Source: Candidatus Hydrogenedentota bacterium
GTDB lineage: Bacteria; Hydrogenedentota; Hydrogenedentia; Hydrogenedentales; CAITNO01
DNA length: 32,852 nt
Direction of reading: 5' to 3'
Assembly: GCA_012523015.1 (NCBI GenBank)
Contig: JAAYJI010000085.1
Location: forward strand, 1 to 32,852
Below the pieces are notes generated by a model. It was given only the letters and a program-made list of their open reading frames with translations, was not told the origin of the DNA and did no database searches. The position numbers and the translations under genes are program-made. Positions within the stretch are counted from its first letter, which is position 1, and each line of letters starts with the position of its first letter. Positions 2,983-32,616 of the stretch are shown here, one piece after another.

Positions 2983-3160
2983 TCGGAAATGCCCATTAAA
3001 GAAACGGGCTCGACAAGGGGAACTTCTTTTGTTTATGGTTCCGAAAACCGATATGATGATTTCATGATCGCATGCTGTAGTCTGATGCAACGTGTGGCTT
3101 AGGGCGTGTAGGAACAGTTCCCTTTCCGCCCCCCCTCACGACGCATCAAAAGGAATTGCC

Positions 3161-6100
3161 ATGAGCATTTACCATCACTCACGCGCTATATGTGGTTGTC
3201 TTCTTCTCCTGCCGCCCTTGCTCTTCTACAGTGTTGCCGCGGCGGCGCCCCTGCCTATTTCGTCCTTAGGAGAACTTCAAAAGATCGGCAATGATGCGGG
3301 CTACCCCCTTAACGGGGATTATGTGCTCACTAAAGATCTAGATGCTTCGGAAAGTGCCTTATGGAATGACGGTGCCGGATTCATTCCTATTGGCTACAAT
3401 TCCAACCGCGCTTTTACCGGACAATTCGACGGACAGGGTCATGTCATTTACGGGCTTCATATCAATCTTCCCGAACAAAATAATGTAGGACTCTTTGGTT
3501 ATGTCGGCGTCAATGGTTCCGTCAGCAGCCTCAGCGTCGAAAACCAGCATATCATCGGCAGATCCGCCGCCGGCGGCGTGGTCGGCGTGAATGCGGGCGT
3601 TATAAACGACTGTTACGCCACTGGTACGGTAGAAAGCTTTGATTATGCGGGAGGACTCGTCGGATGGAACACCGGTATCATCCATCGAAGCTATGCCGCA
3701 TCTGAAGTCATGGTTGTGAGAGAAGGCGGCGGATTCATTGGCACAAACTGGGGCTATGTATACGACTGCTACGCCACCGGTTCCATTACGGGCACCACCT
3801 ATGTGGGCGGGCTCATTGGCCGCCATTACGGACGTCTCTACGCCTCTTATGCCACAGGAGCGCCGCAGGGCAGCACCTTTGTGGGCGGACTCGTCGGATC
3901 CAATGAAGGGATGATTGACTGGAGCTTTTGGGACACAGACAGCAGCGGACAATATGAACGTACCGGCGGGCGCGGCTTGCCTACCGAGAAAATGCAGCAG
4001 ATCTCCACCTTTCAAATTGCGGGCTGGTCGGGCCGCGGCTGGGTCATGGAAGAAGGCGATTATCCCCATCTCCAATGGGAGGCTTTGACACTTCCTGAAA
4101 TCCCTCCGTCGGGACCGCCGCCCTTCCCCGGCAACGGCAGCGCAGCGACTCCCTACCAAATTGGAACGGCCGCACATTTTGCGTTGCTCAGCCAGTACGC
4201 CGCCGTGCTGAGCGCCCATATTGTGATCACCGCAGACTTGGATTTGTCTGACACGATCTTATATCCCATCGGCGAGGGAAGCGGCTTTCGAGGCGTTTTT
4301 GACGGCGGCGGACACGTGCTGCGTCACGCTAAAGTCATCGAACCCACGCGCCGCTATGTGGGCATCTTTTCCGCGCTCGGCGAGGGGGGCAGCATACATC
4401 ATATTGACCTTGAAGATTATTATATGGAGGGCAACGACTACGTGGGCGGACTGGCGGGTAATGCAGAAAAAGCGGTGATAAGCGATTGCTACGGAGAGGG
4501 TGTGGTTGTAGGCAATACCAATGTGGGGGGATTGATCGGCTACAACAACAACGGCTCCGTGGTCTATTGCAACGGCTACACTTCCCTGACGGGAAGCGAA
4601 AATGTGGGCGGTCTCATAGGCGGTAATTACTTGGGGACGATCAGCGATTGTTCCGCCATCAGCACCATTGACGGCAATTCCTACATGGGCGGGCTCATGG
4701 GATTAAATTATATGGGCAGCCTCAGCAATTCTTATGCGGAAACAGAAATTATTGCCAACGCAAATTCTTCCTCAGTGGGCGGACTCATCGGGTACAACGG
4801 ATTTGGAAGCGTCGTGACCGCCTGCTATAGCGCGGGAGAAGTCATGGGGGAAAAAAACATGGGCGGGCTCATTGGCGATAACAAGGATGGAACCGTCAAT
4901 GGTTGCTATAGCAGCTGCTCCGTTGCAGCCATCTCCTATGTGGGCGGACTCGTCGGCACGAACTCTCTTAACAGCGCCATCAACGCTTGCTATGCACGGG
5001 GTGCGGTATTCGGCGAAACGCACGTGGGCGGACTGGTCGGCTACCATCCGGGCTCAATCTTGTGGAGCTTTTGGGATCGGGAGACCAGCGGCCAAGAGGA
5101 CAGTTACAGCGGGCAAGGCTTAAGCACTGCCGAGATGACAAGTCTGGACGTTTTTCAGAATGCAGGATGGGGCGACTGGAATTGGGTCATGGTGGAAGGC
5201 GAATATCCGCGTCTACTCTGGGAACGCCCGACATGGCCCCTCATAGCGGATCCGGTCCTCCCCTTTTCAGGACAGGGCACTGCAGCGGATCCTTTCAAGA
5301 TCGGCACTGCCCAAGAATTCGCCCTGCTGAGTCAATACGCACAAAGCCTCACTGCTCACATAAGATTGCGTTCTGATATCGATCTGCTTGATCTCCCTCT
5401 TCAAAGCATAGGCGAAGGATCGGGCTTTCAAGGTGTCTTTGACGGCGCCGGATACGTCCTGCACAACCCCGGCATCCTCATGCCTACCCGCAAAAATGTG
5501 GGACTTTTTTCGGTCTTGGGTCAAGGAGGCATCATCCAAAATCTCAAGGTCCAATCAATTAGGGTTGTGGGTCGAGAAAATGTGGGCAGTCTGGCAGGCG
5601 AAAACAGGGAAGGAACCATTCGCAACTGTCAGGTACTGGGCTCCGTGTCCGGTGTCAGCACGGTGGGTGGATTGACAGGACAGAACGACAAGGGCGTTGT
5701 CGAAAACAGCCGTATGATCGGGCTTATCACCGGTGATTCTTATGTTGGCGGTCTCATCGGTTTTAATAAACAAGGCAGCCTTGAACGCTGTTACGCCCAA
5801 GGCATTATCGTGGGCGGTCTCTATTCCTCTTGTATAGGAGGCGGCATTGGCTACAACTCAGGTCTTGCACAAGACTGCTATTCGGGAGCGAAGGTATCAG
5901 GCTATTATTACGTGGGCGGATTCGCCGGATACAACTTTTACGATGGGAGCATCGCAAGGTGTTACGCGTGGGGCACGCTGAAAGGCAACGGCGCTGTTGG
6001 AGGACTGGTCGGCGACAACGTTGCGGGCAGTGTCAGCGCCTCTTTTTGGGATGTGGAAAGATCAGGAATAGAAAGCGGAAACGCAGGAGAAGGCCACAGC

Positions 6101-6499
6101 ACCGCGTCCATGACCTGGCCTTATTACGACGGCTTCCTCTACGCCGACTGGAATTTTGCAACCATATGGGCACACGACAATGTTGAGCCTTTGAATCAAG
6201 GATATCCTTATCTGCGCAATGTACTTCCCACCGACGACTATCTCGCCTTGGAAGGTGATGTGGCACCACGTCCTGACGGAGACGGTAAATACAAGGTTAC
6301 GGACTGGCTGCAGCTCGGACGCTTTGTGGTGGGCTTGGATATACCGGAATCGGAAAGTGAATTTCAACGCTGCGACTGCGCACCCCGTGAAACAGGCGGT
6401 GACGGCAGATTAACGACGGCGGATTGGATACAGGCAGCCCGTTATGCCGCAGGATTGGACATGCCGAAGGAAGCGTGGGGCCCCATAACGCAGCAATGA
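3161..6499 (+). CDS. Large secreted GLUG-repeat protein with dockerin-like C-terminus
   Basis: I chose the ATG at 3161 because an AGGA box precedes it and it begins directly with a signal peptide (CGCLLLLPPLLFYSVAAAA). The longer frame from a GTG at 3092 would add 23 uncharacteristic residues. The 1112-residue product has three similar blocks of roughly 300-380 residues. Each opens with an ELQKIGN or EFALLSQY segment and a DLD stretch, contains 5-8 GLUG-like motifs (VGGLIGYN type, about 19 in all), and closes with SFWD, AGW and a YPxLxW-like ending. This predicts a right-handed beta-helix or solenoid. The tail (about 1030-1106) has two EF-hand-like repeats, GDVAPRPDGDGKYKVTDW and GGDGRLTTADW, each followed by an aromatic helix ending AGLD or VGLD, resembling dockerin type I. 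It is probably cell-surface or extracellular, for adhesion or polysaccharide contact; no catalytic motif is visible. Confidence 0.85.
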   Translation: MSIYHHSRAICGCLLLLPPLLFYSVAAAAPLPISSLGELQKIGNDAGYPLNGDYVLTKDLDASESALWNDGAGFIPIGYNSNRAFTGQFDGQGHVIYGLHINLPEQNNVGLFGYVGVNGSVSSLSVENQHIIGRSAAGGVVGVNAGVINDCYATGTVESFDYAGGLVGWNTGIIHRSYAASEVMVVREGGGFIGTNWGYVYDCYATGSITGTTYVGGLIGRHYGRLYASYATGAPQGSTFVGGLVGSNEGMIDWSFWDTDSSGQYERTGGRGLPTEKMQQISTFQIAGWSGRGWVMEEGDYPHLQWEALTLPEIPPSGPPPFPGNGSAATPYQIGTAAHFALLSQYAAVLSAHIVITADLDLSDTILYPIGEGSGFRGVFDGGGHVLRHAKVIEPTRRYVGIFSALGEGGSIHHIDLEDYYMEGNDYVGGLAGNAEKAVISDCYGEGVVVGNTNVGGLIGYNNNGSVVYCNGYTSLTGSENVGGLIGGNYLGTISDCSAISTIDGNSYMGGLMGLNYMGSLSNSYAETEIIANANSSSVGGLIGYNGFGSVVTACYSAGEVMGEKNMGGLIGDNKDGTVNGCYSSCSVAAISYVGGLVGTNSLNSAINACYARGAVFGETHVGGLVGYHPGSILWSFWDRETSGQEDSYSGQGLSTAEMTSLDVFQNAGWGDWNWVMVEGEYPRLLWERPTWPLIADPVLPFSGQGTAADPFKIGTAQEFALLSQYAQSLTAHIRLRSDIDLLDLPLQSIGEGSGFQGVFDGAGYVLHNPGILMPTRKNVGLFSVLGQGGIIQNLKVQSIRVVGRENVGSLAGENREGTIRNCQVLGSVSGVSTVGGLTGQNDKGVVENSRMIGLITGDSYVGGLIGFNKQGSLERCYAQGIIVGGLYSSCIGGGIGYNSGLAQDCYSGAKVSGYYYVGGFAGYNFYDGSIARCYAWGTLKGNGAVGGLVGDNVAGSVSASFWDVERSGIESGNAGEGHSTASMTWPYYDGFLYADWNFATIWAHDNVEPLNQGYPYLRNVLPTDDYLALEGDVAPRPDGDGKYKVTDWLQLGRFVVGLDIPESESEFQRCDCAPRETGGDGRLTTADWIQAARYAAGLDMPKEAWGPITQQ

Positions 6500-10430: not shown

Positions 10431-10502
10431 ATGGACAGGATGGACAGGATGGACGCGATGGACGCGATGGACACGATGGACAGGATGGACGCGATGGACA
10501 GG
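10431..10502. repeat. 9-bp minisatellite, eight units
   Basis: Eight consecutive copies of ATGGACNNG occupy 72 bases. Variation is confined to positions 7-8 (AGG, AGG, GCG, GCG, ACG, AGG, GCG, AGG). The regular variants indicate expansion by slippage or unequal exchange. It lies in non-coding DNA. Confidence 0.9.
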
Positions 10503-10527
10503 AGACGCACAAAGCCTTCCGGTGTAG

Positions 10528-10971: not shown

Positions 10972-13900
10972 ATGAAAACAAAAAATATGCACTTGTTTTG
11001 TACAGCCGTCTTGTTGGCTGTGCTCTGTTGTATCGGAAGCGCCGTTGCACAAATAGATCTCGTCAAAAATGGGTCTTTTGAGGTAGATCCCTTGCCGGGT
11101 AGTCCCGGTTACACACAAAACATCTCAGGGTGGACGGTCGCCGGTCAAGCCATTTTGAATGGCACGAGCGGACCCTTCTATACCAGCAATTTGGGAACCA
11201 TACCACAGGGCAGCAAACTCTCCGGTATGCAAGGGGCGGGCTCGCTCTCCCAAGCCATACTCGGCTTGGCACCGGGCGCCTCCCACACCTTTTCTTTTTA
11301 CTACAATCTTCGTACCGGCAACCCGGGCATGAAGCTTACCGTCAAACTCGGTACGCAAACACTTTTTGGTCCTACAGTCATTACCACAAAAAGCAGCTTT
11401 ACGTCATTTTCCTTTCCTTTTACCTATAATCTCGCATGGGGCAATGTACTCAAGTTTGAATTTTCAGAGCCCCAAGGGGATAACACGATCATGATCGATA
11501 ATGTTAAGCTGACCACTACGGCCACGCCTCAAACTTTCAAAGTTACGCCCAGTATTTCCGGCGGCAACGGCACCGTTTCACCCAACACGCAACAGACCGT
11601 GTACGCCCACGGCTCTTCCGCCTTCACATTTACGCCCGCGGCCGGCTATCGCCTCTATTCTATTTTGGTCAATGGCGCACGCAGCAATGTCTTACCCTTT
11701 AATTACACGATTAAGGATATTACGGCTGACACAACAATCGTCGGTTCTTTTTCACTTCCGGAATGGAGTTTCAACACAGACAATTTCTTAGAGGGTTGGG
11801 AACCCTTGGTTCAAATTGCTGATTGGGAGGTCTCCAACGGCACATTACGATACAACATTGAATCCGGTGCCGCAGACCCTTCTTGGACCTCACAACCCCT
11901 GAATTTGCAGCGCAGCAGTTTCCGATGGATGAAAATCATTGCAAGAAATGACACAGGCTGCGACGGTTCAATCATCTACTTTGACGACAACACGATTCCG
12001 GGCTTTGCTGCAGGACATGAAGCCTTTTTTAGAATCACCCCCAAGGATACCCAATTAAGCGAATATTGGGTAGATTTTGAGGAAAAAGCGACGTGGAACG
12101 CAGCCACCACCATTGAACGCTTCCGATTCGATTTCCCGGATCAAAAAATCGGCAGCTCCGGTTCGTTAACCGGCAATGGCACCTTTGTGGAAGTGGATCA
12201 TATTGCCCTACTGCCCGCCAGCCAAGGACCGCCCCCGCCCACAGCATCCTCCATAAAGCGCGAGAGTCCGTTGATTGCCCCCCCTGCCTATACGAAGGGA
12301 GTGGTAGCCTGGGAAGTACGCCTCAATCATAATATTGACATTACGACCCTAGGGTTGGACGATGTGGCCATAACAGCAACAGGAACCGCCGCGGCAACAT
12401 TGACCGGGGCAACATTAAATCCGACCCAACTGCTTCTCGGCTATACAACGACCGGAACCGGCACAGTCCGACTTGATCTTGTTTCCGGCGGCACGGCTCG
12501 TGACATTGCCGGTCAACCCTTCGTCAGCTACACCGCAGGCGAAGTGTTTAACGTCGACAACGACGGGCCTGCCATCACCATCGGCGCGCCCTCCAAATCG
12601 GTCACCAACACAGGTCCCGTTACCTATACGGTCACCTACACAGATTCGGGAAGCGGCTTTAGCGCCTGCACCCTTGCGGCCGCCAATATCACGCTCAACA
12701 AGACGGGAACTGCAAACGGCACGGTACAAGTGACCGGCTCCGGCAATACGAGAACGGTAAGCATCAACAATATTACCGGTAATGGTTCCTTGGGAATCAG
12801 TATTGCAGCAAACACCGCCACGGACACCTTGGGCAATCTCAGCCTTGCCAAGGGACCGAGCGCCACCTTCACCGTCGACAACGTACTGCCCACCGCAACC
12901 TGCAAAGATCTCACCGTGAAGCTCAGCGCCCCCCAAATCAACGCCCAAGCTATTGATGACGGCAGCGCGGACAATGGCACTATTGTGGAATATCTGATCG
13001 ATGGCGCCTCCAACAAAGTCTTTAACTGCAGCCATATGCCCTCAACGCAAGTCACTTTAAGCGTAAAAGATGGGGCTGGCAACATAAGCACCTGTCAATC
13101 CCAAGTCACCGTGGAAGACGATATTGCGCCTGTCATCACGCTGAACGGAGAAAACAATGTCACCGCGGAATGCGGCGCGAAATACACGGATGCCGGCGCA
13201 ACGGTTGTCGACAACTGTGACAGCAGCGTAACTGTCACGGTCGACAATCCCGTAGACACAGACGTGGTAGGAAGCTATACCGTAACCTACACAGCAAAAG
13301 ATGCAAGTGGGAACGAGACCACACAAACCCGCTCCGTCACTGTTCAAGACACCTTGAAACCGGTCATTACACGGGGTGGTGTGAATAACGTCACTGTTGA
13401 ACTGGGCAATACTTATACCGATGCCGGTGCGACTGCACTTGATCAGTGTGAAGGCACTTTGACCGACTCCATCGTCACAGTAAACCCTGTGGACACGAAC
13501 CAAGTCGGCACCTATACGGTGCGCTACAACGTTTCCGACGAAGCCGGCAATGCCGCAAATGAAGTGACCCGTATAGTCCACGTACGGGACACACAAAATC
13601 CTTATCTCCTTGGCGTCAGCGTAATAGACGGCAGCACCGTATCCCTTAGCTTTAACAAAGACATGGGCCAAAACGTAATGGCTGCCGAAAGTTACAGTGT
13701 ATCCGGTTCAGGACGCGGCACGTTAGATGAGCATCCGAACTCCGTCACAGTAGGCACGGGAAATAGCTATCTGCTGCACTGGTCCCCTACGCAGGAAATG
13801 CTTACAGGCGGTGATATTACCATTACCGTAGCCGCAACCGTAGCCGACATTTATGAAAATACAATGGATGAGGAAGGCAGGGTCATGACCGATCTCGGCG

Positions 13901-15039
13901 GCGCAGTCGGCGAAGCGCCGATCATCGACAGCTGTCCTGCAGACCGAAGCTTAGGCAGCGACGAAAACTGTCAGGCGGCCGTGCCCAATTTGATCCCCGA
14001 AATCACAGCCCACGACAACTGCACCGCTACCGCCAGTCTCATCTTCACGCAAGATCCTATAGCCGGAACACTTATCGATGAAACGACGGAAGTGACGCTC
14101 ACCGTTAAAGATGAAGTCGGTCATGAAAGTCCATGCACGTTGATACTGACGGTAGAAGATCAGACGGCGCCCACAGCCCTTTGTCAAGATCTAACTGTTT
14201 ACTTGAGCAGTCCTTTCCTGAGCGCAGCCATGGCAGACGCCGGTTCCTCCGACAATTGCGGGATTACGTCCCTGCTGATCAATGATGAAACCGGACTATA
14301 CTTCGGCGCCAGCGATATGGGTGAACATGAAATTACCCTCCAAGTCGCGGATAGTGCCGGTAATAGTGACAGCTGTACGGCAGCGCTTACCGTTGTGGAT
14401 GACATTGCACCCGCCGCACACTGCAAAGATATTACGGTCTACTTGAGTGCGCCTACCATCACCGCGGCCGCCATAGACGACGGAAGCACCGATAACGTGG
14501 CTATTACATCCATGCTGATTAACGGAGCCGAACAACTCAGCTTCGACACAGGCGACGTCGGTACGCAAACGGTCACCCTGCGTGTGGAAGATGCTGCGGG
14601 CAACGCCGATGAATGCGATGCCCTCATCACCATAGTCGATGATTTGCCCGACGAAGGTGAAACGCCTTCCGGCTTCCAAGTCACCGCTGTTGGCAATACA
14701 CATATTTTCGTTTCAGAAGGAGCCTCGGCAACCTTCACCGTGACGGTATCGGGAGCGCAGAGTCTGCCTTCTTACCAGTGGTACCGCCACACGGAAGACA
14801 AAGCGCTCAATGCGATTCCCGACGCCATAAGCGCAAGCTACACCATCGGCAACGTATCGGAAGAAGATTTAGGTGAATACCAATGTGAAGTCTACGATTC
14901 CGTGGCGGACGAAACCGCATGGTCACCCATCTTCATCCTGTCCTTGATCTCGGGAGTTCCGACTTCCGCACTTGCGGGACTGGCGCTCATCGCTGCCTTA
15001 ACCGGCCTTGTCGGCGCACGAACACTGCGCAGAAAATAA
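10972..15039 (+). CDS. Large secreted multi-domain Ig/HYR/DUF5011-type protein with C-terminal sorting-like signal
   Basis: The 1355-residue protein has a signal peptide (LFCTAVLLAVLCCIGSAVAQ). Next come a DUF642/carbohydrate-binding-like domain (about 28-185, starting LVKNGSFEV), a B-repeat-like domain (190-260, ISGGNGTVSPN then PAAGYRLYSILVNG), a possible jelly-roll module (262-425) and several Ig-like modules. Two DUF5011-like repeats (around 720-880) share KYTDAGATVVDNC or TYTDAGATALDQC and end in GSYTVTYTAKDASGN-type strands. Three HYR-like units with DNC/DNV motifs and a final Ig domain (YQWYRH ... GEYQCEVYD) follow. The end, VPTSALAGLALIAALTG then ARTLRRK, is a short Pro motif, one membrane helix and a basic tail, like IPTL/PEP-CTERM-type sorting signals. 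It is probably an exported surface or adhesion protein; no enzyme motif is seen. A strong terminator follows. Confidence 0.85.
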   Translation: MKTKNMHLFCTAVLLAVLCCIGSAVAQIDLVKNGSFEVDPLPGSPGYTQNISGWTVAGQAILNGTSGPFYTSNLGTIPQGSKLSGMQGAGSLSQAILGLAPGASHTFSFYYNLRTGNPGMKLTVKLGTQTLFGPTVITTKSSFTSFSFPFTYNLAWGNVLKFEFSEPQGDNTIMIDNVKLTTTATPQTFKVTPSISGGNGTVSPNTQQTVYAHGSSAFTFTPAAGYRLYSILVNGARSNVLPFNYTIKDITADTTIVGSFSLPEWSFNTDNFLEGWEPLVQIADWEVSNGTLRYNIESGAADPSWTSQPLNLQRSSFRWMKIIARNDTGCDGSIIYFDDNTIPGFAAGHEAFFRITPKDTQLSEYWVDFEEKATWNAATTIERFRFDFPDQKIGSSGSLTGNGTFVEVDHIALLPASQGPPPPTASSIKRESPLIAPPAYTKGVVAWEVRLNHNIDITTLGLDDVAITATGTAAATLTGATLNPTQLLLGYTTTGTGTVRLDLVSGGTARDIAGQPFVSYTAGEVFNVDNDGPAITIGAPSKSVTNTGPVTYTVTYTDSGSGFSACTLAAANITLNKTGTANGTVQVTGSGNTRTVSINNITGNGSLGISIAANTATDTLGNLSLAKGPSATFTVDNVLPTATCKDLTVKLSAPQINAQAIDDGSADNGTIVEYLIDGASNKVFNCSHMPSTQVTLSVKDGAGNISTCQSQVTVEDDIAPVITLNGENNVTAECGAKYTDAGATVVDNCDSSVTVTVDNPVDTDVVGSYTVTYTAKDASGNETTQTRSVTVQDTLKPVITRGGVNNVTVELGNTYTDAGATALDQCEGTLTDSIVTVNPVDTNQVGTYTVRYNVSDEAGNAANEVTRIVHVRDTQNPYLLGVSVIDGSTVSLSFNKDMGQNVMAAESYSVSGSGRGTLDEHPNSVTVGTGNSYLLHWSPTQEMLTGGDITITVAATVADIYENTMDEEGRVMTDLGGAVGEAPIIDSCPADRSLGSDENCQAAVPNLIPEITAHDNCTATASLIFTQDPIAGTLIDETTEVTLTVKDEVGHESPCTLILTVEDQTAPTALCQDLTVYLSSPFLSAAMADAGSSDNCGITSLLINDETGLYFGASDMGEHEITLQVADSAGNSDSCTAALTVVDDIAPAAHCKDITVYLSAPTITAAAIDDGSTDNVAITSMLINGAEQLSFDTGDVGTQTVTLRVEDAAGNADECDALITIVDDLPDEGETPSGFQVTAVGNTHIFVSEGASATFTVTVSGAQSLPSYQWYRHTEDKALNAIPDAISASYTIGNVSEEDLGEYQCEVYDSVADETAWSPIFILSLISGVPTSALAGLALIAALTGLVGARTLRRK

Positions 15040-26606: not shown

Positions 26607-26643
26607 CAAAAAAAAGCGGCGCAAGTCCTCACCCTTGCGCCGC
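26607..26643 (-). terminator. Rho-independent terminator of the capsid module
   Basis: A perfect 10-bp GC-rich stem (GCGGCGCAAG at 26616-26625 and its complement at 26634-26643) with an 8-base loop is followed on the minus strand by eight or more T residues. It lies 23 bases after the stop of the last module gene at 26667. Confidence 0.92.
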
Positions 26644-26666
26644 ACCCATTCACCCCAAACCGGAGA

Positions 26667-27029
26667 TTAAGCTTGCTTCAGTTTTTTGACAATACGACCC
26701 GTCCACAGATCGATAAAGTCGTTCCCCAGCGTCTCCACCAAATCCACTCCCCGCCGGCGGGCAATATCAACCGCCCGATCCCGCGCCTGTTTCCGCGCCT
26801 CTTCCTGCTCCCCGGCACTGAGCCGACCCGAAGGATCCTGCTCTTTTAACGCCCGCACGTATTCACGATAGGTCGCGTCCACCGCCGCCTCCAAGGCTTC
26901 CAGCGCATCATTGACTTTACGCTGCCGCATCCCGCGCATCCATTCATGGCTCTTCAATAAGGTCCACAGTGCGCCCACGATGGAAGCAACACAAGCGAGC
27001 ACTGCCTCAGAATGTAATAGACTCATCAT
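26667..27029 (-). CDS. Holin-like small membrane protein (phage LLH-type)
   Basis: The ATG at 27029 has GGAGG nine bases upstream; the frame continues three codons further to a TTG that overlaps the spacing region. The 120-residue product has one N-terminal membrane helix (about residues 7-26, EAVLACVASIVGALWTLL) followed by a long charged, probably coiled-coil, cytosolic part (VNDALEALEAAVDATYREY, ARKQARDRAVDIARRRG). This is the layout of LLH-type phage holins and related small lysis proteins. It is the last gene of the module, 17 bases after the M15 endolysin gene, as expected for a lysis pair. Pore formation is inferred from layout only. Confidence 0.7.
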   Translation of the reverse strand: MMSLLHSEAVLACVASIVGALWTLLKSHEWMRGMRQRKVNDALEALEAAVDATYREYVRALKEQDPSGRLSAGEQEEARKQARDRAVDIARRRGVDLVETLGNDFIDLWTGRIVKKLKQA

Positions 27030-27046
27030 TGATATCAACCTCCTTT

Positions 27047-27511
27047 CTATTGTTGACCGCGGAAACGATTGTCCACATGGACATGACCGTCTGCATAATC
27101 GTCCTTGACCCAGTCAAAATAACGACGGCAGATTTTCCCCACCGTTTTTTGCGCAACAACACGACCCGTTTCCGCCTCCTTTGCGATAAGATCGACTGCG
27201 ATACCGCCGAAGCGGTTGAGGTGGTAGGATCCACGGGACACCAGTCCCCCATCTTCCGTCCACCCCAGCTGTTTCGCGAGCCGCTCATTATCCTGCTCCG
27301 TCCTCACTGCGCTCGTGATAATCACGTAGACAGTCTTACCATAGTAAGCGCCCAGATCACGCCGCGTCCGTTCGAGGCCCTCCAAAAGTGTGGGATGGAC
27401 CATCGCCAGCCCTTCGGCATTTTCAAATTCACGCAACTTAAAGTTCCCGTACAACACGCCGTCCACCTTCGTATGCAAGACTACATTGTTTCGGTTTTTC
27501 ACTACTGCCAT
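27047..27511 (-). CDS. M15-family peptidoglycan peptidase (endolysin)
   Basis: The 154-residue protein shows the zinc site of M15-type D-Ala-D-Ala or L-Ala-D-Glu peptidases: SYHLNRFGGIAVDL with His97 and Asp107, and GHVHVD with His145 as third ligand. The preceding VIITSAVRTEQDNERLA matches the family's S-x-x-R-T/S region. Stand-alone single-domain M15 enzymes of this size are common phage endolysins that cut the peptide stems of peptidoglycan. No signal peptide is present, so release would depend on a holin, and a holin-like gene follows directly. GGAGAGGA precedes the ATG. Confidence 0.87.
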   Translation of the reverse strand: MAVVKNRNNVVLHTKVDGVLYGNFKLREFENAEGLAMVHPTLLEGLERTRRDLGAYYGKTVYVIITSAVRTEQDNERLAKQLGWTEDGGLVSRGSYHLNRFGGIAVDLIAKEAETGRVVAQKTVGKICRRYFDWVKDDYADGHVHVDNRFRGQQ

Positions 27512-27571
27512 GATCCATCCTCTCCTTTCCCCACTTGTTTCTGCAGCTTCATCCCCGGTCTACCCGGCTTA

Positions 27572-28615
27572 TCAGGACGCATTCGACAACACCACGCGGG
27601 CATGCTCATAAAGAATCGCAAAGTCCGTGATCACCGTCAGGTAAGCACGATCCCATTGCTGGTGGATGATCTTGTCATTCTCAAGAAGCAAATCTTGTTC
27701 CGTCAACTTCTGTACGGCATAATTCGCGTCCAAGATCGTGATGCGATCTTCAGGCTGATCGGGCATGGGCACCACTTTCATGCCCAGCGGCGTGGGCAGC
27801 GCACCCGTCCTCGCAAAATCAAAGAGCATGGCATTGGACATCTCTTCCATCGTCAGCAGCGCCACAGAGGCTTGCGGCCCCGTCAACACGTGGGTAGGCG
27901 TGAAATGATTGCTCAAAGCCAACTGTAAATAGCCGATGACCAGATCCCGGTAGCACCAAGATCCCGACTCTTCGCTGTCCATAATCGCCGGCGCAGTAGC
28001 GCCCGAGCTGTCACCGAAAGCGAGGACATGGGCAAGCCGCGCATCAAGATTACGTCCAAGCCGCTCGCCCATACGACGCAAATGAATGCGTAGCAAATCG
28101 ACGGACATGCGGCGGATGACCTCATAGGAGGCAATGACGCCGCGCCCTTTTTTGTCCACGCGCACCACGCGGTCGCCGTAGCGTATGGTCGATTCGGGAA
28201 TGGCAGCGCCTTCCGCCACGGGGCGCAGCGCCTCCTCTTCCTCCTCCTCATTCACATAGGGCATGTCGTAAACGGCGCCGTTGATCCGTTCATCCCGCGC
28301 GATCAGCGACGGGTAAGCGGGTTTATGGCGCATACCGGAGAGCACCGCATCCCGCACCACCTCGGGGAAAAGCCACTTCGCAGAAGGATCGCTGTGGAAG
28401 AAGCGTTCCACTGTGATCCGTTTCAAATCAATGCCGAACTCAGCGGCGCAATAATCTTCCAAAGATGTATCCAAAGCCCTGAAATACTGACCGTGCGTCA
28501 AATCCAGCTCAGACAGCTTCTCATACAATTCCCGGCCCCGCAACGCGCGCAGTTGTTCCGGCGTACGGCTCAAAAATACAACCTGTTCCTTCACTAAATC
28601 ATCCCGTTGACTCAT
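27572..28615 (-). CDS. Phage major capsid protein (HK97-fold type)
   Basis: The 347-residue protein follows a protease and a decoration-like gene, as major capsid genes do. The N-terminal about 100 residues are helical and charged (LVKEQVVFLSRTPEQLRALRG), acceptable for a scaffold-like or delta region. The core has VIASYEVIRRMSVDLLRIHLRRMGERLGRNLDARLAHVLAFGDSS, characteristic of the long spine helix and following region of HK97-fold capsids. THVLTGPQASVALLTMEEM and LGMKVVPMPDQPEDRITILDANYAVQKLTEQDLLLE follow, as in the A-domain and P-domain strands. An acidic run EEEEEE sits near residue 119. AAGGAG precedes the start. Encapsulin-like shells share this fold, but the portal and protease neighbours favour a phage-type capsid. 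Confidence 0.85.
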   Translation of the reverse strand: MSQRDDLVKEQVVFLSRTPEQLRALRGRELYEKLSELDLTHGQYFRALDTSLEDYCAAEFGIDLKRITVERFFHSDPSAKWLFPEVVRDAVLSGMRHKPAYPSLIARDERINGAVYDMPYVNEEEEEEALRPVAEGAAIPESTIRYGDRVVRVDKKGRGVIASYEVIRRMSVDLLRIHLRRMGERLGRNLDARLAHVLAFGDSSGATAPAIMDSEESGSWCYRDLVIGYLQLALSNHFTPTHVLTGPQASVALLTMEEMSNAMLFDFARTGALPTPLGMKVVPMPDQPEDRITILDANYAVQKLTEQDLLLENDKIIHQQWDRAYLTVITDFAILYEHARVVLSNAS

Positions 28616-28642
28616 TTCTTGTCTCCTTATCTTTCTTGTTGA

Positions 28643-29023
28643 TTACAGAAGTACTTCCACCGTAGTTGACGCAGCGTTCACCTGAACCACCATCCCTCGC
28701 GCCGTCGCCTCCTCGGAAAGCTCCACTTTCCCCGCCTCTTCCGAAGGGATCACACCCGAAACACCGTCTACCTCCGGAGCGCTGCCCGAATAGGGAAAGC
28801 TGCAGATGCCGCGCACACGGATGGGCACCAAGGTACCCGTCCGGTCGCAGTCCACCATCACTTCTCCAAAAACGATATCGCCCTCTTCAAACACATTGCT
28901 CACTTCATAGTCACTCGTGAGTTTGACCGCCTCGCCCGCGCGCAGCGCCACCGTTCCCGACGGCTGCGTACGACAACTAACGATCAAGCTGCTGATTGGT
29001 CCACCAAAGCCTTCATTCGTCAT
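28643..29023 (-). CDS. Capsid decoration-like protein (DUF2190-like)
   Basis: The ATG at 29023 has AAAGGAG seven bases upstream, so the seven codons before it are excluded. The 126-residue product is predicted mostly beta-stranded (SNVFEEGDIVFGEVMVDC, GTLVPIRVRGICSFPYSG, MVVQVNAASTTVEVLL). Its size and position directly before the major capsid gene suit head decoration or cement proteins such as the DUF2190 family. The similarity is of layout rather than of strong motifs, so another small head protein is possible. It lies 27 bases before the capsid gene. Confidence 0.65.
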   Translation of the reverse strand: MTNEGFGGPISSLIVSCRTQPSGTVALRAGEAVKLTSDYEVSNVFEEGDIVFGEVMVDCDRTGTLVPIRVRGICSFPYSGSAPEVDGVSGVIPSEEAGKVELSEEATARGMVVQVNAASTTVEVLL

Positions 29024-29089
29024 CTCAATCTCCTTTCTGAACATCTTGTTCTTTGCCCGACCAAGGGCACTTGCTCACACCACAACCAC

Positions 29090-29791
29090 TCAATGCTTCT
29101 CTCCCACGATGCGCCGGATCCGGCTCCTGCGCTCCTCTTCCCCGTCCACATCCAAAGGCTCAGGCCGAGACACAGGCTCCGGCGGCAGCTGCCGGTCGTA
29201 GCGCGTCTCCACCTTCGCGAGGCGCTCGTCGATCTCGCACAAGGTCATCCCCTCCAGCAGCCGACGCCAGCCCGTCTCATCAAAATCGTCGCCGTCCAGC
29301 GTGCGGCTCAACCCGCAAAAGCGCAGGATCGACCGTGACCGCGCCCGCAGCCCATCCTCCACCAGCGCCGACAAAGACGCCCGCTCCTTGCCGTGCTCCT
29401 GAAGCGTCGAAGCGAGGGCGCGCATTTCCTCCACACCGGGGCTGGAACAGCGTTTTAACGAAAGCTCAACCGTTCCCGACGGACTCATCAACAAGAGGGA
29501 ACAGTCCCGGTCGCTGCGCTGCTGCCACGCATAGACGCCTTCGTTTTCTCGGCGCGTGTCGCCGTCCTCGCTGAGCCACTTCAGTGGATGGGGCATTTTC
29601 TCCGTCGCCCAACAGCCCGCTTCCAAGGTCTCACCTGCAATGCGCCATCCCGTCAAGTGATCGCCCTGCTCTAAGCGCAGATCGAAATGGGGCCCGTCCC
29701 CGTCGTGATGGCGCTGCAAGACAAAGCGTCCCGCCTCCTTCGCAGGCGCCGGATCCTGCACTTCTCGAATTGCCGTAATTTCCCAATACAT
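29090..29791 (-). CDS. LigD 3'-phosphoesterase-domain protein within the capsid module
   Basis: The N-terminal part (about 20-112) of this 233-residue protein matches the LigD_N 3'-phosphoesterase (PE) domain. FVLQRHHDGDGPHFDLRLE contains His28, His35, Asp37 and Arg39, and MPHPLKW contains His68. These reproduce the order and approximate spacing of the manganese-binding and catalytic His/His/Asp/Arg/His set described for Pseudomonas LigD (His42, His48, Asp50, Arg52, His84). GWRIAGETL takes the place of the family's SWAVPKGP. PE domains trim 3'-phosphates and 3'-ribonucleotides from DNA ends during end joining. No polymerase or ligase domain and no ku gene is present. The C-terminal half is helical and charged, unrecognised, and may tether it to the particle. 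A GAGGAGA box precedes the ATG. It sits between the XhlA-like and decoration genes, an unusual location for this domain. Confidence 0.75.
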   Translation of the reverse strand: MYWEITAIREVQDPAPAKEAGRFVLQRHHDGDGPHFDLRLEQGDHLTGWRIAGETLEAGCWATEKMPHPLKWLSEDGDTRRENEGVYAWQQRSDRDCSLLLMSPSGTVELSLKRCSSPGVEEMRALASTLQEHGKERASLSALVEDGLRARSRSILRFCGLSRTLDGDDFDETGWRRLLEGMTLCEIDERLAKVETRYDRQLPPEPVSRPEPLDVDGEEERRSRIRRIVGEKH

Positions 29792-29874
29792 CTTCGTTCT
29801 CCTCTATCGTTGCGGCTTATCCAATACAGGGCATCCGTACCCTGTCTTAAATACTCCTTTGTCCCGTCACACCT

Positions 29875-30072
29875 TCAGCCGATGAGCTGGCGCGCAAGGG
29901 TGATGACCATGCCCGCCAGATTGGCAATCAATATGGTCGTGCCCCGGCTCAGCGTAGCCTCCAAACGGCCCATGCGCTCCTTCAACTCCCGTACCGATTC
30001 CGAGAGGGCGCGGAACTCCACTTCCGCCGCACGCTCAAAAGCGCAGCGGCTGCTGCATTCTTTCTTGTCCAT
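29875..30072 (-). CDS. Small XhlA/holin-accessory-like membrane peptide
   Basis: GGAGG eight bases before the ATG at 30072 marks the start; the frame is open upstream only into unrelated sequence that overlaps the protease gene. The 65-residue product has a Cys-containing N-terminus, a heptad-rich helix (ALSESVRELKERMGRLEATLSRG) and one C-terminal membrane helix (TILIANLAGMVITLARQL). Coiled coil followed by a single membrane helix is the layout of XhlA-type phage lysis accessory proteins and some holins. It lies between the protease and the LigD-domain gene, away from the endolysin. A structural role cannot be excluded. Confidence 0.65.
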   Translation of the reverse strand: MDKKECSSRCAFERAAEVEFRALSESVRELKERMGRLEATLSRGTTILIANLAGMVITLARQLIG

Positions 30073-30098
30073 CCCTTGATCCTCCTTGTCTTTCACGA

Positions 30099-30797
30099 TT
30101 ATTCTAGCGCCCACGTCGTACCGGTCACGGTGATGGGCTGATGATAGGCTTCCCGAGCGGCGCATAACGCTTCCATGGGCTCTAAAAGACCGGCGCCCTT
30201 TTGACCGCGCTCCTGCGCCACGAAGCGTGTCCCCTGCGAGCCCGCAGGCACCACCGAACCTTCCAACACCTCCAACACATCGCGCATAATGAAATGACAT
30301 TGTTTGTCGCCGTAGCTGCGCCCGGGAACATGAGAGCAGCGGCGCAAATCGCGTCCACACACGGAACATTCGGGCAGCCGAAAGGAAAAGGCGATAGACG
30401 TTTCCCGATAGACGCCCCCTTCAATGTTCAAAATAAAATCCTTGTTTTGTTCCGAACGGAGCACGTAGACTTCCGGGGGCACCGACAGATAATCTCCGTC
30501 ACGGTGCAGCCGAGAGCGGAAAAAGGTGCCCCGCGGCAGCGAGCCCGCCAAATCATGACGCTCCATCAGCGGCCGGCCCGGCGTCAAGCCATTAATCCGC
30601 TCCAGCTCCTTTTCCGGGAAGCGGCTGAAATGACGATCTACTTGGTTGTTGCACAGATCCATCGTGAATAACGCCACCTCCTCCGCCGTCAGCCTGCGCA
30701 GCGCGAAATGATTGACCGCTTTCATGGGGTCGTCTTTTCCCAACGCCGCCGGACGAACCTGTCCCCGCTGACTGAATACAAAGGCTTTCATTTCCAT
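30099..30797 (-). CDS. Phage prohead protease with Cys/His cluster
   Basis: The 232-residue protein resembles herpesvirus-type/HK97-like prohead proteases. PLMERHDLAGSLPRG supplies a candidate catalytic histidine (His81) and YRETSIAFSFR a candidate serine (Ser134), with a later VLEGSVVPAGSQGTRF strand typical of the family's third motif. Between them is CSVCGRDLRRCSHVPGRSY, a CxxC...CxH cluster (Cys145, Cys148, Cys154, His156) like the zinc-ribbon-type insert known in a subset of phage proteases. Such enzymes cleave scaffold and capsid N-termini during head maturation. The gene lies between portal and capsid, as expected. GGAGG precedes the ATG at 30797; a second ATG two codons later is equally usable. 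Confidence 0.8.
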   Translation of the reverse strand: MEMKAFVFSQRGQVRPAALGKDDPMKAVNHFALRRLTAEEVALFTMDLCNNQVDRHFSRFPEKELERINGLTPGRPLMERHDLAGSLPRGTFFRSRLHRDGDYLSVPPEVYVLRSEQNKDFILNIEGGVYRETSIAFSFRLPECSVCGRDLRRCSHVPGRSYGDKQCHFIMRDVLEVLEGSVVPAGSQGTRFVAQERGQKGAGLLEPMEALCAAREAYHQPITVTGTTWALE

Positions 30798-30849
30798 TCT
30801 TTAATCCTCCTCAATGTTAAAAACCACGAACACAAGCCCAACCCGACCC

Positions 30850-32100
30850 TTAAAAGCTTCGAGTCAGTTCTTTTGCTTCCTCAAGAGTGATGAGCCCACC
30901 GTCCAGCAAGCGCAAGGTGCTGTCAATTTCTTCCGACCGTGCGCGGGCCTCTTTCAAAATATCCACCGTTCGATTACTCTTCATCACAACCTCCGCCCGC
31001 GCATCCACACCATGCAGCGATAATTCAAGATTGAACAACCGTTCCAGCAGCTTCTTCACGCGCCGGTTCACCGTCTCAACCTGCCGATTTACCACTTCGA
31101 ATTGCGCGGTGCCGTAGGTTTCCGTGGAACCATAGTTACGCCCCATCAACACCGGCATCATGTGCATGCCTGTAATCATCTGTTCTTCCACCGCCTTCTG
31201 ATTGTCATAAAAGACCTGATGCTGTTGGTTGCCGTTTAAGACGGAGACCTCCACATTGTTGAAGGTGACCAGATTGCTGTTGGGGCGGGTGCTGCCCATA
31301 GAGGCACGGATTTGTGATAACTCATCGAGGACACGTTTTTCATAAGCCGCAGCCGTCTCCTGCGGACGAGGCTCGCCGGGGTTATATTGAACGTGCAGTT
31401 TGTTCCAGCCCGCGTTGTGCGTAGCTGACGCCATGTCGGTCAACAATTGCTGTTGGATACGCACCACGTCGGGCAAAGCGCGCAGCATACTCCGACCGTA
31501 GGGATTGGTACCGTCCCGATCCAGACCCATGTAGAACAGCAAATCTTTCGGCAGGCGGAGCGCCTCCTCTTCATGAAGTTGATAGGCTTCCAGGCCGCCC
31601 CCTTGATTACGAAAACGCAAGGTCCAGATGTCGACGGGCACGATATTATGCACCCTGCGCCGTGCCCGGCCCGGCACCACTTCGAGGGCTGCCGCGCCAA
31701 AGGTAAAGAGCGACGCGTAGAAGATATCGAGGAGCCCCGTTAATCCGCCGTCATGGGCGTTCACCCGCGATTCCAAGGCGTCCAAAATCGCTCTGCCCGA
31801 TTCGGCATCCTTGCCCGAAAGCCGCAGCGTGTATCCCGAGTGACACAAGCGCTTCCACGTCCATACGGCATCGGAGATATCCGGCACCGCGTCGCGCAAA
31901 ACACGATAAATGCGCAGCATCTCAAAGGGGGTACCGTTAGGCAGTGCAATAAAATGGTTGAGCGACGAAGGGCCGCCGCCCCATTCTTCGGGCCGAGAGA
32001 CGCTCTGCAGCAGCGCCGCTCCTTGTCCCATCTTTCTTTTCCCCGACCAAGGCCGAAAAAAACGTGCCGCCCACTTTTTTATCTTTGTCTCTTTTTTCAT
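30850..32100 (-). CDS. Phage portal protein
   Basis: The ATG at 32100 has GGAGG eight bases upstream; the open frame extends five codons to a TTG that overlaps that box. The 416-residue product has the portal architecture. A basic N-terminus is followed by a wing region with YRVLRDAVPDISDAVWTWKRL and LLDIFYASLFTFGAAALEVV. Next come DLLFYMGLDRDGTNPYGRSMLRAL, a short stem stretch IQQQLLTDMASATHNAGW, the crown-side helices EEQMITGMHMMPVLMGRNYG, and a Gln/Glu-rich C-terminal helix (VVNRQVETVNRRVKKLLERL). Portals form the dodecameric DNA channel at one capsid vertex and dock the terminase. No terminase gene lies upstream, where one would normally be. It is the first gene of the transcription unit. 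Confidence 0.85.
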   Translation of the reverse strand: MKKETKIKKWAARFFRPWSGKRKMGQGAALLQSVSRPEEWGGGPSSLNHFIALPNGTPFEMLRIYRVLRDAVPDISDAVWTWKRLCHSGYTLRLSGKDAESGRAILDALESRVNAHDGGLTGLLDIFYASLFTFGAAALEVVPGRARRRVHNIVPVDIWTLRFRNQGGGLEAYQLHEEEALRLPKDLLFYMGLDRDGTNPYGRSMLRALPDVVRIQQQLLTDMASATHNAGWNKLHVQYNPGEPRPQETAAAYEKRVLDELSQIRASMGSTRPNSNLVTFNNVEVSVLNGNQQHQVFYDNQKAVEEQMITGMHMMPVLMGRNYGSTETYGTAQFEVVNRQVETVNRRVKKLLERLFNLELSLHGVDARAEVVMKSNRTVDILKEARARSEEIDSTLRLLDGGLITLEEAKELTRSF

Positions 32101-32616
32101 CGGTGCTGCCTCCAAAAGCCTGTTGAGTTTCGCAGTGTCATGCTTTTACTATTAATAGGCAATGATTAGCACTTTTTGAAAGAGGCTATCGATGAAAACA
32201 CCTGATGCCATTGGCTTTTCCCCATTCCAACGCCCGAAAAAGCCCTATATACAAGTATACCCATAAGTTTACCCATATATGAAAGACAAAAATAAATTTT
32301 TACCCTTTAGTATCAAGGGTAAACGAAGTATAAAGACCCTTTTTCCTGCCACAGCCCCAAAAAATGAATTCACTCTTTTTGAATAAACTGCCGGCAGCAT
32401 CGCAACGGAGCACACTTAAAACCGGCGCGGCAGATTTCATAACGCTCCATCATGACGGCTACCGCCTCCGCCAAATGAATGGCAGTCCGACCTGTACCGG
32501 CGCGGGCAAAGCCCCAAAAGCCTGTCTGCATTGGGTCACCGTGTCTAAAATGCTGCCTCTAGAGAAGCGCTTTCCCGCCTTGATTTGAAGCGGATCTAAA
32601 ATTGCATTCTGCAGGT
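32101..32616. other. Gene-free leader of the capsid module
   Basis: This roughly 515-base stretch lies between the portal start and the IS30-type remnant. It is AT-rich around 32240-32340 and holds the GGGTA-box cluster described separately. A plus-strand 74-codon frame (32364-32588) and a minus-strand 65-codon frame (32459-32656) overlap each other and show no recognisable family or good ribosome binding site, so neither is called. Notably no terminase or integrase gene, or remnant of one, is visible here. Confidence 0.55.
32254..32323. promoter_or_regulatory. Cluster of four GGGTA boxes upstream of the portal gene
   Basis: A 12-bp tandem pair (AGTATACCCATA, AGTTTACCCATA; 32254-32277) is followed by a perfect 9-bp inverted repeat (TTTACCCTT at 32299-32307 and AAGGGTAAA at 32315-32323). 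All four arms share TACCC/GGGTA. The AT-rich setting about 150-220 bases before the portal start suggests operators or iteron-like protein sites controlling the module. On the minus strand TATACT and TATATA offer -10-like hexamers within and after the tandem pair. Confidence 0.6.

Follow-up and report, generated by a model that had tools for sequence, protein, structure and literature searches.

A dispersed, phage-derived head, lysis and terminase gene system of Candidatus Hydrogenedentota is a candidate gene transfer agent

Gene transfer agents are described as particles whose proteins derive from tailed phages, which encapsidate mostly random host DNA and whose genes are fully endogenised, often at several loci. 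In addition, their heads are too small for the whole gene set, they are inherited vertically and co-diversify with the host, and they deliver DNA to other cells (PMC9662315). The RcGTA of Rhodobacter capsulatus (Rhodogtaviriformidae) has phage-derived head and terminase genes that are distributed over several loci and vertically inherited (PMC9662315). Outside Proteobacteria, the agent of Brachyspira (VSH-1/BhGTA) probably has its terminase and structural genes spread over several loci (PMC9662315), and in the BaGTA of Bartonella the capsid system is coupled to phage-type, run-off replication (PMC2697382). As for Hydrogenedentota, no paper linking this phylum to gene transfer agents was found in the open literature, a scope that left subscription papers and preprints largely outside. 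The eight-gene unit analyzed here is best explained as the operon for the head and lysis proteins of a domesticated phage system, which is dispersed over the chromosome, vertically inherited across Hydrogenedentota and most likely a gene transfer agent. The system is apparently undescribed and is best called a candidate gene transfer agent.

The analyzed stretch of 32,852 nucleotides (the window) corresponds to the whole of contig C85, part of a metagenome-assembled genome of 3.7 Mb (G000). The unit lies within positions 26607-32323; it is real and intact and is no stray prophage. As the first-pass annotation had stated, it consists of eight consecutive, tightly spaced open frames, and all eight intact genes are located on the minus strand. 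The first gene (30850..32115, with a probable ATG start at 32100) encodes a portal protein conserved in 27 aligned genomes and similar to phrog_3753 (E 6e-39). Its match with PF06074 (Portal_Mu) falls below the cutoff (E 2e-4), and the Pfam family Phage_portal (PF04860) has zero matches in the whole G000 genome. The next gene (30099..30797) encodes a prohead protease-like protein that matches phrog_16951 of unknown function (E 3e-36); residues H81 and S134 are conserved in the alignment, and the counterpart at this position in Candidatus Lindowbacteria matches the head maturation protease family phrog_80. These genes are followed by the ORF of a 65-aa coiled-coil protein with a membrane-like helix at its end (29875..30072), whose operon position is conserved according to phmmer, and by the gene of a protein with a LigD-type 3'-phosphoesterase fold and a helical C-terminal part (29090..29791), assigned from its predicted fold and invariant residues.

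The remaining four genes encode a head decoration protein (28643..29044; phrog_4588, E 7e-10), an HK97-fold major capsid protein (27572..28615; phrog_3922, E 1e-48; PF25209, E 2e-10), an M15 peptidase-like endolysin (27047..27511; phrog_894, E 1e-6) and a holin-like protein with a single N-terminal membrane helix (26667..27038). The profile of the capsid family matches the HK97 gp5 structures at 8e-5, and residues H97, D107, H143 and H145 of the M15 protein are conserved. The holin-like protein shows a weak match with phrog_13712 (E 0.0012) and has a conserved operon position. The initial assignment of a portal, protease, capsid, decoration, M15 and holin set is confirmed, the holin match being weak. 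The same applies to the strong terminator and box-rich leader reported earlier: an intrinsic terminator with a strong hairpin (10-bp stem followed by T8) was found at 26616..26643 on the minus strand, and the leader at 32255-32323 contains inverted and direct GGGTAAAC/GGGTATAC boxes.

Since only about 0.5 kb of the contig remains upstream of the unit and the flank is otherwise unassembled, the upstream surroundings were never seen. The very end of the contig (32617-32850, minus strand) holds a truncated HTH_38 frame similar to the beginning of an IS30-type transposase. Elsewhere in the window, the plus strand encodes two secreted repeat proteins of very large size (3092-6499 and 10972-15039), of which the first has a dockerin-like end. 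A tandem 9-base repeat of the ATGGACACG type at 10431-10503 lies inside an open frame that reads M-D-x repeats, and simple repeats akin to it are also present in relatives.

The identity of the fourth gene product had been missed by the first-pass annotation. Its similarity with PF13298 falls below the cutoff (E 0.004). The AlphaFold model of the protein (pLDDT 91.5) has as its seven best PDB fold matches only LigD 3'-phosphoesterases, the top one at 4e-5 with a probability of 1.0; no viral structure matches the protein confidently. Residues H28, H35, D37, R39 and H68 are invariant across 20 homologues, so that both the barrel fold and the catalytic His, His, Asp and Arg that define the LigD 3'-phosphoesterase superfamily were recovered. 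The fold and the H, H-x-D-x-R pattern are common with the archaeal stand-alone enzymes 3p4h and 3p43 and with Pseudomonas LigD (3n9b). Unlike these enzymes, the protein is encoded in a phage-head operon and has an extra helical domain; its histidine spacing is shifted by one residue, and its activity is predicted only. As a guess, it could trim or heal DNA ends at packaging.

The distribution of the system was surveyed in 68 Hydrogenedentota genomes, 38 of which are at least 90% complete (high-quality). The capsid gene was found in 52 of the 68 genomes and 34 of the 38 high-quality ones, almost always as one intact copy, with 59-83% identity. More distant relatives (45-47% identity) occur in Candidatus Lindowbacteria and in two unassigned or doubtful records. 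No capsid relatives turned up when 2.9 million viral contigs were scanned twice, and a phage collection contained only relatives with 29-34% identity, which are gut phage records. Synteny across related genomes, one of the checks proposed at the outset, is conserved: in more than 40 loci the gene order is portal, protease, coiled coil, phosphoesterase, decoration protein, capsid, t1, t2, t3, t4, M15 and holin. In the capsid tree of 41 genomes, the nine GTDB family labels are explained by eight changes, which is the minimum; none of 200 shuffles gave a value as low.

Genes t1-t4, located between the capsid and endolysin genes in most of the phylum, form a tail-type module. Protein t2 resembles a distal tail protein (Dit-like; PF22768, E 2e-5), and t3 carries a staphylococcal-nuclease domain (PF00565, E 1e-5 to 6e-7), which was detected within this tail-type protein in two of the t3 homologues scanned (for instance, in locus L031, 6839-8680). 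Neither a tail tube nor a tape-measure protein was recognised in the operon. When whole genomes were searched with t1-t4 together, these proteins turned up in 46; they are missing genome-wide from the genus of the window (four genomes), from Hydrogenedens (also four genomes) and from G012 and G013, which are relatives of the window's genus. In the window's family, the other members retain just t1 and t2, and the tail-less genomes of the window's genus and Hydrogenedens still keep the head, terminase and lysis genes. Because t1-t4 occur both in other families and within the window's own family, the simplest reading is that the module was lost in at least two lineages. The earlier statement that tail genes are absent thus holds genome-wide for the tail module of the relatives, the search elsewhere in the G000 genome having returned none, and fails as a description of the ancestral state.

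The terminase was recognised through the Lindowbacteria locus, where the large terminase subunit (TerL) gene lies 2 kb after the capsid gene. A relative of this TerL occurs in 55 of the 68 Hydrogenedentota genomes (37 of the 38 high-quality ones), the count of 55 being an upper bound since a few of these are other, sporadic terminases. As a rule TerL is remote from the head operon: most genomes have the two on different contigs, and the distance is 50 kb in G057 and 14 kb in G047, whereas in G035 about 1 kb separates TerL from the holin gene. In G000, the genome of the window, TerL was found on contig C160, where it adjoins rpoB and rpoC, so the reported lack of a terminase is correct for the neighbourhood of the unit and incorrect for the genome. 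TerL is preceded there by genes encoding a small-terminase-like protein (p89) and a 3D-domain wall protein (PF06725, E 1e-15). Five of the six best PDB matches of the predicted p89 fold are the HK97 small terminase, with Foldseek probabilities of 0.90-0.98 and E-values of 0.1-0.8.

The TerL of G000 has zero Pfam matches and is similar to phrog_2 (2e-22); Walker A, Walker B and nuclease aspartates are retained in 19 aligned sequences. Two other ways of finding TerL were discarded: Pfam Terminase_6N matches just 11 of the 68 genomes and misses the conserved TerL, and phrog_2 gives mostly weak matches outside sporadic phages. The TerL tree of 20 genomes explains eight family labels by seven changes, again the minimum, and capsid and TerL distances are correlated (Mantel r 0.54, p 0.0005). 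The TerL of G015, a genome without a capsid gene, forms a very long branch. The association of capsid and TerL presence across the metagenome-assembled genomes is not significant (Fisher p 0.17), a test that is uninformative because almost every genome has both genes and most of the absences reflect gaps in assembly. A second, unrelated and sporadic TerL of 646 aa is encoded in G000 beside an HTH/metalloprotease-like gene (locus L109 on C311, 2035-3975); it is probably a fragment of an ordinary prophage.

Pairwise dN/dS values, calculated for each gene as had been suggested, indicate purifying selection, being below 1 throughout wherever dS is unsaturated. They were 0.03-0.16 for the capsid and 0.055-0.14 for TerL, and the maximum among all other genes, 0.66, comes from one holin comparison with very few changes. 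Tail-type genes are under purifying selection where they are kept. In the tail-less genus, selection on the capsid and TerL is no weaker than on a neighbouring transporter gene, with values between G000 and its sister genome G007 of 0.068, 0.055 and 0.084, respectively.

The leaders of the head and terminase operons have ATATATGGGTAAACTKATGGGTATAC in common. Its 23-base core occurs at exactly four G000 sites with up to three mismatches, and at none in the reversed control. The predicted operator GTAAAC-N6-GTATAC of the head operon (32255..32272, no strand assigned) is one of four exact GTAAAC-N6-GTWTAC sites in the 3.7-Mb genome, which precede the head operon, the terminase operon and two replication genes; within 1.76 Mb of DNA scanned, the palindrome was found only in such leaders. 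A second inverted repeat with GGGTAAA half-sites (a TTTACCC...GGGTAAA stem) lies upstream of the operator at 32299..32323. The four leaders align along their length, and a second common element, GTGCTAAT followed by CCTATTAATAGTAAAAGC, is located about 100 bases downstream in all of them (32142..32172, minus strand, in the head operon) and is probably the core promoter.

The count of operator sites covered 17 genomes of the window's family. G007 contains exactly two exact sites, which precede the head and the terminase operon, respectively; G009 and G017 have a site before the head operon and G019 before the terminase operon. For further exact sites in G008, G009, G013, G016, G017, G018 and G019, no connection with the system was recognised. 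Comparison of the leaders in 13 genomes revealed a shared operator in G000 and G007 only, with nothing beyond chance in the other families, and a motif-free test recovered the same dyad in these two genomes. The shared operator was seen within one family only. A leader motif of G001, GTAGACTCCGGAGTCTAC, was considered as a second regulon and rejected as a dispersed repeat, since its five genomic copies have common flanks and adjoin unrelated genes. These copies (L204-L208) are palindromic, with A and T tracts around GTAGACTCCGGAGTCTAC.

The two other operator sites of G000 belong to DNA replication loci with the operator and promoter of the head and terminase operons (L138, 6165-9103; L139, 3-993). 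The site on contig C157 precedes the gene of a 915-aa CHC2-zinc primase with TOPRIM-like and DUF3987 domains, and that on C165 a gene pair ending in a Prim-Pol start cut by the contig end. The primase and zinc-protein loci were rejected as members conserved in the phylum, strong primase matches being patchy or multicopy and the zinc protein being present in 5 of the 68 genomes. Related primases adjoin phage-type integrases in G007 and G013. Integrase-bearing elements with primase-DUF3987 or Prim-Pol-DUF3987 genes were observed in related genomes (L160, L161, L163 and L169), and these look like phage satellites or small integrative elements. Since related primases reside in such elements, the operator-bearing loci may be satellites under the control of the agent, exploiting its regulation for packaging, or replication genes recruited by it. 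It is a tentative suggestion that in the window's lineage the agent works without its own tail and that its operator also drives the two phage-type replication loci (CHC2-primase/DUF3987 and Prim-Pol).

According to the mechanism proposed here, a regulator acting at GTAAAC-N6-GTWTAC would switch on the head operon together with the unlinked packaging operon (TerS-like p89, 3D-domain wall protein and TerL). A prohead would be built from the portal, protease, decoration and capsid proteins, and TerL would pump chromosomal DNA into it until the head is full. In most lineages, a short tail or baseplate (t1 to t4) would be added, a step lost in the window's genus. The M15, holin-like and 3D proteins would then lyse the cell, and the released particles might deliver the DNA to other cells.

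Three of the six described features of gene transfer agents were found: particle proteins of tailed-phage origin (portal, capsid, decoration, terminase and Dit-like matches), full endogenisation over several loci (head and terminase operons at separate chromosomal sites) and vertical inheritance with the host (minimum family-label changes on both trees). The other three concern packaged DNA, head size and delivery; the formation and release of particles, the packaging of host DNA and its delivery are inferred. The dispersal of the system over loci makes joint packaging of all its genes unlikely. The gene-transfer-agent-like particle that the first-pass annotation had listed among its alternatives is well supported: the genes are inherited vertically throughout the phylum and are under purifying selection, and the separate loci share their regulation. 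The lack of any detectable tail gene for delivery in the window's genus and Hydrogenedens counts against it, as do the single-family operator, the weak holin match and the inclusion of other terminases among the 55 TerL genomes.

All parts of the system being of tailed-phage origin, with distant relatives in gut phage records, the unit might be taken for a prophage, conventional or cryptic, or for a widespread phage lineage that has integrated repeatedly. An ordinary prophage is marked by adjacent integrase and replication genes and sporadic distribution; however, neither was found beside the unit, the genes occur as one copy per genome throughout the phylum, the capsid and TerL trees are congruent with host families, the terminase occupies a separate locus and viral-contig relatives number zero. 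This reading is already contradicted and highly improbable. A phage satellite that borrows the terminase of a helper, another earlier alternative, would agree with the distance of the terminase from the unit in most genomes and with the sporadic TerL on C311. Such a satellite would be devoid of its own large terminase, whereas nearly all high-quality genomes have a dedicated TerL that is inherited in line with host families and shares its operator with the head operon; moreover, the unit has its own full head set and no integrase. Since every lineage carries a terminase of its own, whose inheritance follows that of the capsid, the satellite is contradicted and can hardly be the explanation, and a domesticated shell without packaging is disfavoured.

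More weight, at a low probability still, is given to a domesticated capsid serving another purpose, in which the head and terminase would package DNA in order to discard, protect or export it, or would carry protein, with no delivery of genes to other cells; tail loss in several lineages would then mark a change of function. The disappearance of t1-t4 from the window's genus, its relatives and Hydrogenedens under continued selection on head, TerL and lysis genes is consistent with this, as is the phosphoesterase built into the head operon. However, the retained portal, TerL, TerS-like and lysis genes point to DNA packaging and release, and in the greater part of the phylum tail-type genes are retained and under purifying selection. 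The gene transfer agent, if confirmed, would be conserved throughout an entire phylum of uncultured bacteria; it would have relatives in genomes of the Lindowbacteria type, while none of the characterised agents is recognisably related to it. The repeated loss of tail genes, with selection maintained on the genes for head, packaging and lysis, would amount to a natural experiment, and comparing tailed and tail-less lineages would be an approach to why bacteria keep gene transfer agents. It would also show why such systems escape notice, the terminase having no Pfam match and lying far from the capsid genes.

Among known systems, gut phages with phrog_3922-type capsids (e.g., MT121964.1) have a homologous capsid, but they are separate phage records, none of which is closely related to the Hydrogenedentota lineage. 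The likeness to VSH-1/BhGTA, which belongs to a different host phylum, is drawn by description and not by gene content. The coupling of a capsid system to phage-type replication recalls BaGTA, whereas in Hydrogenedentota it is two primase genes at unlinked sites that carry the operator, and this in one genome only. Like RcGTA, the Hydrogenedentota system combines phage-derived head and terminase genes at several vertically inherited loci; in contrast to RcGTA, again by description and not by sequence, its operon includes a gene for a LigD-type phosphoesterase and has no recognised tail tube or tape measure, and its terminase is encoded apart from the head genes.
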